Assembly (NCBI GenBank): GCA_003258405.1
Contig: QKPN01000001.1
Location: 434,001 to 498,000 of the forward strand
Source: Rhodobacteraceae bacterium DSL-40
Lineage (GTDB): Bacteria; Pseudomonadota; Alphaproteobacteria; Rhodobacterales; Rhodobacteraceae
Length of the DNA stretch: 64,000 nt
Direction: 5' to 3'
Positions 21,364-26,408 of this stretch are shown one piece after another (position 1 is the stretch's first letter; each line of letters opens with the position of its first letter). Below the pieces are notes generated by a model, which made no database searches, was not told where the DNA came from, and worked only from the letters and a program-made list of their open reading frames with translations. The translations under genes and the position numbers were made by a program.

Positions 21364-21416
21364 TGTGATCACACCTTGATGTCGTGTGATCACAGATGGC
21401 GGCCAGCGCGATCACA
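21364..21416. promoter_or_regulatory. Phased TGTGATCACA operators upstream of sdhCDAB
   Basis: TGTGATCACA occurs at 21364-21373 and 21385-21394. The 21-base start-to-start distance equals two helical turns, so both lie on one face of the DNA. A weaker third copy, CGCGATCACA, is at 21407-21416 and runs into the mch stop codon. The same motif with the same 21-base spacing lies before sucC (26378-26408). It is likely a cooperative binding site for one regulator. Family is not proven; a GntR-type regulator or the TCA-cycle activator AkgR described in Rhodobacter sphaeroides are candidates only. Confidence 0.75.
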
Positions 21417-22446
21417 TGGGGATGAAAACCCAGTAATCCAGATCGAGCAGCACATCGGGCCGATACTTGCCATCTGTGCCCTTGATCGAGAAATCGCCCG
21501 CACCGCCCTTCACGGCGAGCGTGCGCAGCCGCAGCGCACCGACCCCCGGCGCACCGGTCTCCGCCTTGTCCAGCACCTCGCTCCAGGCCCCGATCGTGTC
21601 GCCCGCAAAGCAGGGATTGGCGTGAGCGCCCGCGTTGATTCCCGCCACGATCTGGGCATTGGCCAGGCCGTTGAACGACAGAGCGCGCGCCATGGAGATC
21701 ACATGACCGCCATAAATCAGTCGCCGTCCGTCCTCGCGCAACGTGGCATCGAAATGCACCTTGGAGGTGTTCTGCCAGAGGCGAGTGGCGATCATGTGCT
21801 CGGCCTCCTCGATGGTCACCCGATCCACATGGTCGATGCGCTCACCGACCTCGTAATCGCCCCAGCGATGGGGCTCGCCCGCCAGCGCGAAATCGTAGGT
21901 CGAGAAGTCTAGACCCTCGGGCACCACCAGATCAGCGGCCGCCACCGAAGGCGCGAGATCCGGCAGCACCGTCTCCGGCGCGGGCGCATCGAGGTTGCGC
22001 TTGCGCACCATCACCCAGCGGCAATAGCTCATCACGGGCTCGCCGCGCTGATTGGTGCCCGTGGTCCGCACGTAGACGACGCCGCTCTTCCCGTTCGAGT
22101 TCTGCTTGAGCCCGATCACCTCGCTCGTGGATGTCAGCGTGTCGCCCGGATAGACCGGCTTCAGGAAACGCCCCTCGGCATAGCCGAGATTGGCCACCGC
22201 ATTGAGGCTTACATCCGGCACCGTCTTTCCGAAGACCACATGGAAGGCCGCGATGTCCTCGAGCGGGCTCGCCGGCAGCCCGCTTGCGCGGGCGAATTCA
22301 TCGGAGGAATAGAGCGCGAAGCGCGTCGGATAGAGCGCAGTGTAGAGCGCCCGGTCGCCCTCGGTCACCGTCCGCGGCACCGCATGGGTGATCGTCTGGC
22401 CGAGGCTGTAGTCCTCGAAGAAGTTTCCGGCGAAAGTCTTTGACAT
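21412..22446 (-). CDS. mch: Mesaconyl-CoA hydratase ((2R,3S)-beta-methylmalyl-CoA dehydratase)
   Basis: 344 residues. A double MaoC-like hot-dog protein of the right length for Mch of the ethylmalonyl-CoA pathway, which hydrates mesaconyl-C1-CoA to beta-methylmalyl-CoA. The N-terminal half opens with FFEDYSLGQTITHAVPRTVT; the second half contains RWGDYEVGERIDHVDRVTI and the hydratase-type stretch YGGHVISMARALSFNGLAN. It is the last gene of the minus-strand cluster mcl2-nnrU-DUF1737-mch. Its end abuts the sdh operator region. The gene set in the window (ccr, ecm, mch, mcl2) supports the assignment. Confidence 0.94.
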   Translation of the reverse strand: MSKTFAGNFFEDYSLGQTITHAVPRTVTEGDRALYTALYPTRFALYSSDEFARASGLPASPLEDIAAFHVVFGKTVPDVSLNAVANLGYAEGRFLKPVYPGDTLTSTSEVIGLKQNSNGKSGVVYVRTTGTNQRGEPVMSYCRWVMVRKRNLDAPAPETVLPDLAPSVAAADLVVPEGLDFSTYDFALAGEPHRWGDYEVGERIDHVDRVTIEEAEHMIATRLWQNTSKVHFDATLREDGRRLIYGGHVISMARALSFNGLANAQIVAGINAGAHANPCFAGDTIGAWSEVLDKAETGAPGVGALRLRTLAVKGGAGDFSIKGTDGKYRPDVLLDLDYWVFIPM

Positions 22447-22449
22447 GTC

Positions 22450-22653
22450 TTAGAGTTCTCCGAGAGACATTTCGGGGTCGTAGGTCGCGTCGACCTCCTT
22501 CACCACCGCCTGGCCACAGCGCATCACGCCGGCCGAAGCATCGAAGGCGTAGGTCGGCTGGCCATGCAGCGACCAGCCTTTCGAAAGCGCCTTCGTTACC
22601 TTGTGGCAAAAGGCGGAGGTGTCGACATCGGTGAGAAAACGGTAGGCCAGCAT
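22450..22653 (-). CDS. DUF1737 family small protein
   Basis: 67 residues, three bases before the mch start. The sequence YRFLTDVDTSAFCHKVTKAL followed by GWSLHGQPTYAFDA is characteristic of the DUF1737 family, small soluble proteins of unknown function in proteobacteria. Cys16 and Cys46 are present, but no metal site can be argued. Tight packing between nnrU (4-base gap) and mch means it is co-transcribed with ethylmalonyl-CoA pathway genes; any role there is unproven. Confidence 0.82.
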   Translation of the reverse strand: MLAYRFLTDVDTSAFCHKVTKALSKGWSLHGQPTYAFDASAGVMRCGQAVVKEVDATYDPEMSLGEL

Positions 22654-22657
22654 GGGG

Positions 22658-23221
22658 TTACCTCGGAAACGGCGGGTAGCCGAGCCAGGTGTGGATGGCC
22701 ACGATCACGCCAAAGACGACGATGGTGATCACGGCCAGAATGATGTCCTTCTTCACCGGGCCGGGTGCCGGGCGCTCCCAGGGGCCATCCTGGGCATTGA
22801 TCAGGACGATGGCACTGACGGCCCATACGAGCATCACGCCAAAGAGAAGCAATGAGGCAAGATCACCGTTCACCAGCAGATGCGCCACGGCCCAGGTGGC
22901 TGTGCCGAGCAGCATCGGGTTCCGGAACAGGCTGCCGATCCGGCCTTTCGAATGGCTCGCGCCGTAGAGCCCGACGGCTCCCAGCATCATCAGGTTGTTG
23001 AGATGCACGGTCCAGGCGGCGGGCGTGTAGACCGGAATGAAAGGCGCGCTGCGGAAACCCACTATGATGAGCAGAAGGCCAACGCCGATCCCGGCCGCGA
23101 CGACGCCCCGAGCGCCCTTCGGACCGGCCTTCGCTTCCAGTCGGTCATGCAGCGCCGGGGCGATGCGTTTCATCAGATGAAAGCCGCACCAGAGTGCGAG
23201 CCCGACTACCAGCCAGAACAT
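22658..23221 (-). CDS. NnrU family membrane protein
   Basis: 187 residues, five or six membrane segments (about 1-17, 42-60, 72-88, 103-121, 123-141, 159-178). MFWLVVGLALWCGFHLMKRIAP, then AWTVHLNNLMMLGAVGLYGASHSKG and a C-terminal WLGYPPFPR fit the NnrU family. NnrU was named for linkage to nitrite/NO respiration but most homologues have no known role. Here it sits between mcl2 and DUF1737/mch in an acetyl-CoA assimilation cluster, and no denitrification gene is in the window, so the name should not be read as a function. Confidence 0.85.
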   Translation of the reverse strand: MFWLVVGLALWCGFHLMKRIAPALHDRLEAKAGPKGARGVVAAGIGVGLLLIIVGFRSAPFIPVYTPAAWTVHLNNLMMLGAVGLYGASHSKGRIGSLFRNPMLLGTATWAVAHLLVNGDLASLLLFGVMLVWAVSAIVLINAQDGPWERPAPGPVKKDIILAVITIVVFGVIVAIHTWLGYPPFPR

Positions 23222-23253
23222 TGTCTTGCTCCCTATTTCAGGTCCGCGGGCGC

Positions 23254-24779: not shown

Positions 24780-24912
24780 CGCGCGAGCGGGCGTGCCGTA
24801 GATCGCCTCTTGCGGCGGTGCAGCACCGTTTTCGGCCATTGCGTCTTGCTAAAGTGATCGCGAGGGGCTAGCCACTTGCGCGTTTCATACGCAGAAGGGG
24901 AGACTGGCCCAA

Positions 24913-25875
24913 ATGGCAAGACCGAAGATCGCTCTGATCGGTGCCGGACAGATCGGGGGCACGCTCGCCCACCTGGCCGCACTCAAGGAACTTGGTGACG
25001 TTGTCCTGTTCGACATCGCCGAGGGCACGCCCCAGGGCAAGGCACTCGACATTGCCGAGAGCAGCCCCGTCGACAAGTTCGACGCCGTTCTCAAGGGCAC
25101 GAATTCCTATGAGGACATCGCAGGCGCCGACGTCTGCATCGTTACCGCCGGTGTCCCCCGCAAGCCCGGCATGAGCCGCGACGACCTCCTCGGGATCAAC
25201 CTCAAGGTCATGCGCTCCGTCGGCGAAGGCATCGCCGCCAATGCTCCGAACGCCTTCGTGATCTGCATCACCAACCCGCTCGATGCCATGGTCTGGGCAC
25301 TGCGCGAGTTCTCTGGCCTGCCCCACGAGAAGGTCTGCGGCATGGCCGGCGTCCTCGACAGCGCCCGCTTCCGCCACTTCCTCGCAGAGGAATTCTCGGT
25401 GTCCGTGAAAGACGTCACCGCCTTCGTGCTCGGCGGTCATGGCGACACGATGGTGCCGCTCACCCGCTACTCCACGGTTGCCGGCATTCCGCTCCCGGAC
25501 CTCGTGGAAATGGGCTGGACCACCCAGGAAAAGCTCGACGCGATCGTGCAGCGCACCCGTGACGGCGGCGCCGAGATCGTCGGCCTCCTGAAGACCGGTT
25601 CGGCCTTCTATGCGCCGGCAGCCTCCGCCATCGAGATGGCCGAAGCCTATCTCAAGGACCAGAAGCGCGTCCTGCCCTGCGCGGCGCATCTCTCCGGCCA
25701 GTATGGCCTCAAGGACATCTACGTAGGCGTCCCGACCGTTATCGGCGCCGGCGGCATCGAGAAGGTCGTCGAGATCTCGCTCGACAAGGCCGAGAAGGCA
25801 ATGTTCGACAAATCGGTCGACTCGGTTCAGGGCCTCATCGCGGCCTGCAAGGGCATCGAGTCCAGCCTCGCCTGA
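24913..25875 (+). CDS. mdh: Malate dehydrogenase
   Basis: 320 residues, the lactate-dehydrogenase-like form common in alphaproteobacteria. The NAD-binding loop GAGQIGG is at residues 10-16. Other features are [17 protein letters not shown], the [10 protein letters not shown] segment, and the active-site [10 protein letters not shown] with the catalytic histidine near residue 177. It oxidises malate to oxaloacetate in the TCA cycle and handles malate from the ethylmalonyl-CoA pathway. GGGGAG precedes the ATG. A strong terminator follows, so it is not in the suc transcript although it is next to it. A GTGATCGC half-site near 24854 is too weak to call an operator. Confidence 0.97.
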
Positions 25876-25902
25876 TCCGAAACCCTCGGGTCTCATGTTT
25901 CG

Positions 25903-25930
25903 CGCCGGCCCCTTCGGGCCGGCGTTTTCT
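25903..25930 (+). terminator. Intrinsic terminator of mdh
   Basis: CGCCGGCC pairs with GGCCGGCG around CCTTCG, followed directly by TTTTCTT. It lies 27 bases after the mdh stop and is the clearest Rho-independent terminator in this part of the window. Confidence 0.9.
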
Positions 25931-26377
25931 TGTGCGCATCGCAACAGGAAACCTGATTGCGCCAGTGCTGGCGCGAGGCAACCGCCAGGGGCGAGGTCGA
26001 GAGAGATTTCCGGCCGCGAGCGGAGCGGCTCCGTGGATTTGCGCAATGCACTCGCCCGCATCGGAAACCCGCTTCTCGTCTCAGTGCACATGCCCAACAC
26101 CGGCGGACCAGCATGGCGACCTGCCTTCGCGCGAAGGACGAGGTCGGTCTTCTCGAGGAGTGCCGCAGCAGCCGGTCGATCATCTCGGCGCAGCACAAGT
26201 ATTGCGACTTCCAACGCCGCCTGATCCCGTCCGGCAGGTAGCCAGACCACCGTCCTCTATCCCTTGCGCAGCCAAAGCCCTCGTGCGCCATCACTTCACC
26301 GAGGACTACGCGCTGATCGGGCACTTACGGCAAGGCGCACAGGGCACGAACCCGATTCGTTCCAATCACGGCGAAAT
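25931..26377. other. Gene-free stretch between mdh and the suc promoter
   Basis: About 450 bases with no reading frame that looks coding: the open frames on both strands are rich in Arg, Ser and Cys, lack a ribosome site and overlap each other. No repeat, tRNA or second hairpin of note was seen. It is unusually long for this dense region and may hold a small RNA or the relic of a gene. The suc operator pair begins at its right edge. Confidence 0.5.
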
Positions 26378-26408
26378 TGTGATCACGGAAAAAAATCGTG
26401 TGATCACA
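26378..26408. promoter_or_regulatory. Phased TGTGATCAC(A/G) operators upstream of sucC
   Basis: TGTGATCACG at 26378-26387 and TGTGATCACA at 26399-26408 are spaced by 21 bases, exactly as the pair before sdhC. The pair lies 130-160 bases before the sucC ATG. A -10-like TAATAT is near 26446 with no good -35, which would fit a promoter that needs an activator. Shared motif, spacing and TCA-cycle context point to one regulator for sdh and suc. Confidence 0.75.

Follow-up and report, generated by a model that had tools for sequence, protein, structure and literature searches.

A 64,000-nucleotide stretch of the Rhodobacteraceae bacterium DSL-40 genome (contig QKPN01000001.1, positions 434,001 to 498,000; hereafter the window) contains two pairs of 10-bp palindromes, one upstream of the sdhCDAB operon and the other upstream of the sucCD-sucAB cluster. 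Both pairs are very probably operators of AkgR, a GntR/FCD regulator encoded elsewhere in the genome, which would bind them as cooperative paired dimers and probably activate both operons. The case is built from sequence, namely the sites, their spacing, their recurrence in relatives, their co-occurrence with the regulator gene, a self-site in front of that gene and the phasing of A/T patches. A first-pass annotation of the window had proposed that operons for adjacent steps of the tricarboxylic acid (TCA) cycle share this operator pair. Pfam assignments confirmed sdhCDAB and the suc cluster, and the pair recurs at sdh and suc across the family.

The two pairs, each with a start-to-start spacing of 21 bp, had been picked out in that annotation and were recovered by motif scan. 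Upstream of sdhC, exact copies of TGTGATCACA form the promoter-proximal (21364..21373) and distal (21385..21394) predicted operator sites, and the weaker third site also proposed there, CGCGATCACA, is present 22 bp beyond the distal one (21407..21416). Upstream of sucC, the predicted distal site (26378..26387) is TGTGATCACG, one base off TGTGATCACA, and the proximal site (26399..26408) is an exact match. These are the only four matches to the 10-mer with at most one mismatch in the window; 0.89 were expected from 100 shuffles, of which one reached four. Exact TGTGATCACA occurs four times in the 4.37-Mb genome (about 1.3 expected from the base composition of the window). Three copies are in the window, and the fourth (L007:1501), on another contig, lies directly upstream of a GntR/FCD regulator gene. 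The spaced form TGTGATCAC-N10-12-TGTGATCAC is found in the genome at the two window pairs only, its backwards control giving no match. The pattern YGTGATCACR occurs at 16 places in the genome: the four window sites, the self-site and 11 others. Ten of these others were inspected (the eleventh is L252) and a wider regulon in this genome was rejected, each site lying inside an open reading frame (ORF) of more than 400 codons, these being mechanical ORFs and not proven genes. A genome-wide exact search placed no TGTGATCACA at the gltA, icd, acn or pdh promoters, which were not scanned promoter by promoter.

Two other types of binding site were also rejected. CRP-type sites read TGTGA-N6-TCACA; in the 10-bp palindrome the half-sites abut, without the six-base gap, so that the layout is wrong. 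CceR sites read [AGT]GTT-N6-8-AAC[ACT] (PMC4344238), and TGTGATCACA has neither the GTT nor the AAC half-site.

The first-pass annotation had suggested scanning this genome and its relatives for the spaced pair. Beyond the two places in the genome itself, a 21-bp pair (at most two mismatches) was found in 265 of 295 family genomes, representing 294 genera, compared with 2/295 for the backwards control. Outside the family, 2/380 genomes matched with at most one mismatch (385 genomes of the class were taken, five being family members). Given this difference, the pair appears to be characteristic of the family. Genomes reached via named loci behaved similarly, with 14 of 15 matching at no more than one mismatch and only Roseovarius sp. 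TE539 lacking a match; the first gene at the 16 loci read from them was sucC in 11 and sdhC in five.

A sample of promoters, chosen regardless of motif, was assembled from stretches of some 500 bp at the sdhC and sucC genes of 40 relatives each (handles G001-G042, leaving out G021 and G037 at suc, and G019 and G021 at sdh, the last two and G037 for want of a match) together with the DSL-40 genome. The sucC promoters (n = 41) carry the pair at 21 bp in 34 cases and at 20 bp in two; the remaining five have none, and all five belong to genomes negative for the regulator (see below). Among the 41 sdhC promoters the pair stands at 21 bp in 31 and at 20 bp in one, and the nine without it comprise five from regulator-negative genomes, one cut by a contig end (G030) and three true misses. 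Apart from 21 bp, 20 bp is the sole spacing found repeatedly. The distal core starts 125-186 bp upstream of sucC and 127-324 bp upstream of sdhC.

Exact pairs were placed in a set of 27 genomes chosen for loose extra hits (13 sdh and 10 sucC by coordinates, the rest by fetched loci). They stand at 55 promoters, of which 27 are suc (26 upstream of sucC, one upstream of sucA), 26 sdh, one fumC and one other. Triple exact sites at 21-bp steps lie upstream of sucC in G135, G191 and G285. An exact 21-bp pair in G042 (L109, G042:C16, 1502-1530) is located 125 bp upstream of a fumarase C gene (Pfam), the next step of the TCA cycle, and possibly represents an extension of the regulon in a single genome. 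In G276 (L273, G276:C3, 1258-1286) an exact pair precedes a gene whose product is, by Pfam, an extracellular solute-binding protein, on a different contig from the sdh and suc pairs. One of the two matching genomes outside the family, G440 (L238, G440:C189, 992-1020), has a 21-bp pair directly upstream of a GntR/FCD gene whose product is 28% identical to AkgR, with a further GATGATCACA copy upstream of the pair; the site may serve a wider GntR/FCD subfamily.

The regulator gene of the DSL-40 genome (G000:C147:110340-110987) encodes a protein with PF00392 and PF07729 over the cut-off. A first look gave 24 regulator candidates, and nine FCD places (eight over cut-off) exist in the genome, one of which is the close match and the single one at E ≤ 1e-40. 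No YGTGATCACR was present in the seven of the eight other FCD stretches that were inspected; one of these seven has two GTGATCAC cores in a different flanking context. Of the 295 family genomes, 271 gave a homologue at E ≤ 1e-40, leaving 24 regulator-negative genomes (20 listed, four by elimination). The 21-bp pair is present in 257/271 regulator-positive and 8/24 regulator-negative genomes (Fisher p 7e-13, kinship ignored). Moreover, eight of the 14 regulator-positive genomes without it have a 20-bp pair, as do none of the 16 corresponding regulator-negative genomes, so that at either spacing the counts become 265/271 and 8/24 (p 4e-16, kinship again ignored). Regulator and pair thus tend to be lost together.

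The regulator gene itself commonly carries a single site. An exact self-site is present in 86 of 112 akgR loci (some genomes counted twice), and the upstream consensus of 66 non-redundant rows consists of TTGACc, nine unconserved bases and TTTGTGATCACAta, with the start codon a few bases later. With TTGAC as the -35 element and a spacer of 16-18 bp, the -10 element would fall inside the operator and transcription would start at or adjoining the ATG, which makes autorepression of a leaderless akgR message probable. The akgR orthologue is located 0.8 kb (G051) and 2.5 kb (G111) past sdhB in two relatives. Gene numbers suggest to us that akgR of Rhodobacter sphaeroides is presumably placed near sdhB in a like manner.

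We take RSP_0981, a GntR protein of R. sphaeroides, to be AkgR, the targets of the two matching. RSP_0981 has been predicted to act on sdh, sucCD and the 2-oxoglutarate dehydrogenase genes (PMC4344238), and GTGATCAC is listed among the sites of AkgR, which is termed a transcriptional activator (PMC6365646). Because both have been published, the regulatory system is already known. The present case shares with it the GntR regulator, the sdh, sucCD and 2-oxoglutarate dehydrogenase targets and the GTGATCAC core, the palindrome of this regulon being found upstream of both the sdh and suc operons; it differs in that the regulator gene lies on a contig apart from sdh and suc. The guess in the first-pass annotation that AkgR was the regulator is very probably right, in view of the self-site at the sole close GntR/FCD homologue, the co-loss, the published R. 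sphaeroides regulator and the synteny in two relatives. A search on the exact motif returned no title on the regulator. In the portions of the AkgR literature that were available, no description was found of a strict two-turn pair, of A/T patches every 10 bp or of a self-site over the akgR -10, part of which the 2015 mBio AkgR paper may hold; the pair geometry, the self-site layout and the A/T patches may therefore be new.

Related regulators offer a model for binding. Atu1419, a VanR-type FCD regulator of Agrobacterium fabrum with the same GntR/FCD fold and a 10-bp palindrome, is a tetramer (dimer of dimers) with one palindrome per dimer; in its own promoter and those of its targets the palindromes lie at the -10 or between the -10 and -35 elements (PMC7797058). 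By analogy with Atu1419, we infer one AkgR dimer per 10-bp palindrome. The cooperative dimer of dimers expected in the first-pass annotation is consistent with such a relative and with the 21- or 20-bp spacing. However, Atu1419 is a repressor whose palindromes are separated by 190 or 109 bp, for which looping has been proposed (PMC7797058), rather than 21 bp in tandem as here, and its identity to AkgR in the fold match is 18-20%. NanR of Escherichia coli likewise binds neighbouring repeats jointly as GntR dimers, but as three dimers on GGTATA repeats and as a repressor (PMC8012715). PS417_07240, the GntR-type regulator of a deoxyribonate cluster, shares the GTGATCAC palindrome upstream of its own gene, but belongs to Pseudomonas, is 32% identical to AkgR and serves another pathway (PMC6365646).

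The protein sequences would suit a carboxylate effector. Mean column identity among 33 AkgR orthologues is 74%, and the predicted structure (monomer model, pLDDT 86.7) best matches E. coli McbR (TM 0.85). Residues R91, N137, H141, H184 and D206 are invariant in all 33 sequences. CitO of Enterococcus faecalis, also an FCD protein, is reported to use R97, N147, H191 and H213 for its metal and citrate pocket, and TM0439 to use H134, H174 and H196 (PMC4746285). R91, H141 and H184 of AkgR are spaced similarly to those of CitO, and the last two ligands of those proteins are 22 residues apart, as are H184 and D206. AkgR may therefore have a pocket for carboxylates in which one ligand differs, the third being Asp in place of His. 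The place of CitO His213 is thus taken by invariant Asp206, and the target and motif of CitO also differ.

Alignment of the promoters, with positions counted from the leading G of the distal core, comprised 53 sdh and 65 suc rows after removal of rows near-identical to others, too near the stretch end or containing N. The motif TT[TGA]A lies at +75 to +79 in 32/65 suc rows (at +76/+77 in 30/65), and GTGAC at +87/+88 in 36/53 sdh rows and at +97/+98 in three, so that the sdh and suc positions are about one helical turn apart. The -35 assignments rest on this position-specific conservation, because a weighted promoter scan gave scattered results. In the window, the predicted suc -35 is TTGCAA (26454..26459, plus strand, at +75 from the first core), followed after a 17-bp spacer by the predicted -10 TAATCA (26477..26482, plus strand; two of six bases as in TATAAT). 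The first-pass annotation had taken a poor -35 at sucC as fitting activation; the comparison bears this out only in part, favouring a -35 and -10 farther downstream (26454/26477). The sdh promoter of the DSL-40 genome has no GTGAC at the expected place.

The interval between the pair and the -35 is itself patterned. A/T content peaks near +30, +40, +50, +60 and +70, with troughs between, in both sdh and suc promoters; in the window these A/T-rich patches, detected by periodicity power, run in steps of about 10 bp from the suc pair to its -35 (26408..26454). Power near period 10 exceeded that of all 2000 per-row circular shifts in a first set (31 sdh, 34 suc) and a second (22, 31), with nearly equal phase (8.7-9.0); the p value has a floor of 1/2001 and the null treats related rows as independent. 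The test was devised after the first set had been seen, and the second consists of loci selected because their pairs were strong or multiple. Single rows average a power of 5.5 (sdh) and 6.0 (suc) against 1.0 for shuffles, and the pattern persists without the A-run adjoining the proximal site and without rows bearing the CGCCAAAAAACCGCG element. A weak signal also exists upstream, in the control interval -50 to -4 (sdh 5.3 against a null maximum of 2.9; suc 2.3 against 2.3). The suc promoter of DSL-40 ranks 32/35 from the low end, none of 5000 shuffles reaching its power; its sdh promoter ranks 4/32 (shuffle p 0.10) and the pattern there is unclear. Power 3' of the pair was set against that at an equal distance from the start in 11 genomes lacking both regulator and pair. 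The positive group was defined by the pair and so includes G019 (at suc) and G114 (at both promoters), which are regulator-negative. The values were 6.2 against 2.3 at sdh (p 3e-6) and 5.8 against 2.9 at suc (p 1.6e-4), the weakening being clearer at sdh. Between the operators and the -35, spanning roughly +52 to +68 relative to the first core, nine of the 53 sdh rows of relatives carry the CGCCAAAAAACCGCG-type element, perhaps the site of another, RegA/PrrA-like regulator.

From these data we infer binding, cooperativity, activation, autorepression and a carboxylate effector, as follows. One AkgR dimer would occupy each 10-bp palindrome, and two dimers, two helical turns apart on the same DNA face, would form a cooperative unit. 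The probable effect of this unit is joint activation of sdhCDAB and the sucCD-sucAB cluster, so that the part of the TCA cycle from 2-oxoglutarate to fumarate would be set as one block. The unit would sit upstream of RNA polymerase, with predicted centres near -87/-108 in suc and some one turn beyond that in sdh, and would act across DNA that has A/T patches every 10 bp in most sampled relatives. AkgR would limit its own level via the single site over its -10 element.

Several observations weigh against this account. At the family level, the conservation before sdhC and sucC anticipated in the first-pass annotation holds, but it fails in part close by. The same-genus genome of Amaricoccus macauensis (G130) keeps the suc pair, but has no site with at most one mismatch upstream of sdhC and no self-site at akgR. 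With both pairs present in A. solimangrovi, conservation in the nearest relatives is partial. G007, G012 and G033 have the suc pair and lack the sdh pair, as does G087; six of the 271 regulator-positive genomes have a pair at neither spacing, and 26/112 akgR loci (one masked there) lack the exact self-site. Eight of the 24 regulator-negative genomes keep the pair with no hit at E ≤ 1e-40 (G019, G021, G096, G114, G167, G209, G256 and G264); three of these are less than 80% complete, and incomplete assemblies or a diverged regulator could account for the eight. The same eight genomes, and the number of candidates in the DSL-40 genome (24 at first look, nine FCD places), would suit another GntR/FCD paralogue, or a member of another family, reading the pairs while the AkgR homologue merely co-occurs. 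Against such a reader stand the self-site in the homologue promoter, the co-loss and the lack of YGTGATCACR in the seven of eight paralogue loci inspected, and we regard it as very unlikely. It is somewhat less improbable, though still unlikely, that AkgR binds the pairs mainly as a repressor released by an effector. Several FCD relatives (DgoR, NanR and Atu1419) are repressors and the akgR self-site overlaps the predicted -10, but at both sdh and suc the predicted -35 is far downstream of the pair, an activator-like arrangement, AkgR is termed an activator (PMC6365646) and CitO, also FCD, is one (PMC4746285). The motif is short and palindromic, which would favour chance; in line with the earlier judgement that chance is very unlikely, recurrence in 265/295 family genomes (backwards control in two), together with a pair at 20 or 21 bp upstream of sucC in 36/41 and of sdhC in 32/41 sampled promoters, refutes it for practical purposes.

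It is possible, though we would not favour it, that the A/T patches are simply the usual contact points for the alpha subunit of RNA polymerase, independent of AkgR. The predicted suc patches near -42, -52, -62, -72 and -82 correspond to the contact steps of the alpha C-terminal domain, and a residual suc signal persists in the 11 genomes that lack both regulator and pair, with a best-window power of 4.8 compared with 6.6. However, the pattern is weaker in those genomes, and anchoring on the operator makes it more coherent than does anchoring on the -35 (57.0 against 50.3; 75.3 against 56.4). Equally tentative is the proposal that AkgR promoters have a distinct architecture, in which a two-turn dimer pair and five one-turn A/T patches maintained for AkgR would carry the signal about 50-60 bp to RNA polymerase, either through guided alpha-subunit contacts or through DNA bent round an AkgR-polymerase complex. 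The distance from pair to promoter would then come in whole turns, placing the suc -35 near +76/77 and that of sdh near +87/88, or +97/98 in three sdh rows. A guess from raw sequence has become a regulon seen throughout the family, for which a named regulator is likely. Its two promoters with their one regulator, the many genera and the natural losses provide a clean test bed for asking how an activator bound far upstream communicates with RNA polymerase and why its spacing follows helical turns.

The genes beside the pairs were assigned by Pfam. On the minus strand, sdhC (20784..21173, Sdh_cyt, start at 21173) is the first gene past the sdh pair and is followed by sdhD, sdhA and sdhB (17768..20776). 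On the plus strand, sucC (26538..27731) is the first gene past the suc pair, followed by sucD (28624..29508), sucA, encoding 2-oxoglutarate dehydrogenase E1 (29628..32594), an ORF with E2 (sucB-type) domains (32240..34144) and a pyridine nucleotide-disulphide oxidoreductase ORF, lpd by position (35238..36626). The listed GTG start of the E2-type ORF overlaps sucA, and its true start is further downstream. Upstream of sdhC, on the minus strand (21412-24144), are a mesaconyl-CoA hydratase-like gene and a CitE/HpcH-type lyase gene (Pfam), possibly ethylmalonyl-CoA pathway genes adjoining the TCA genes.

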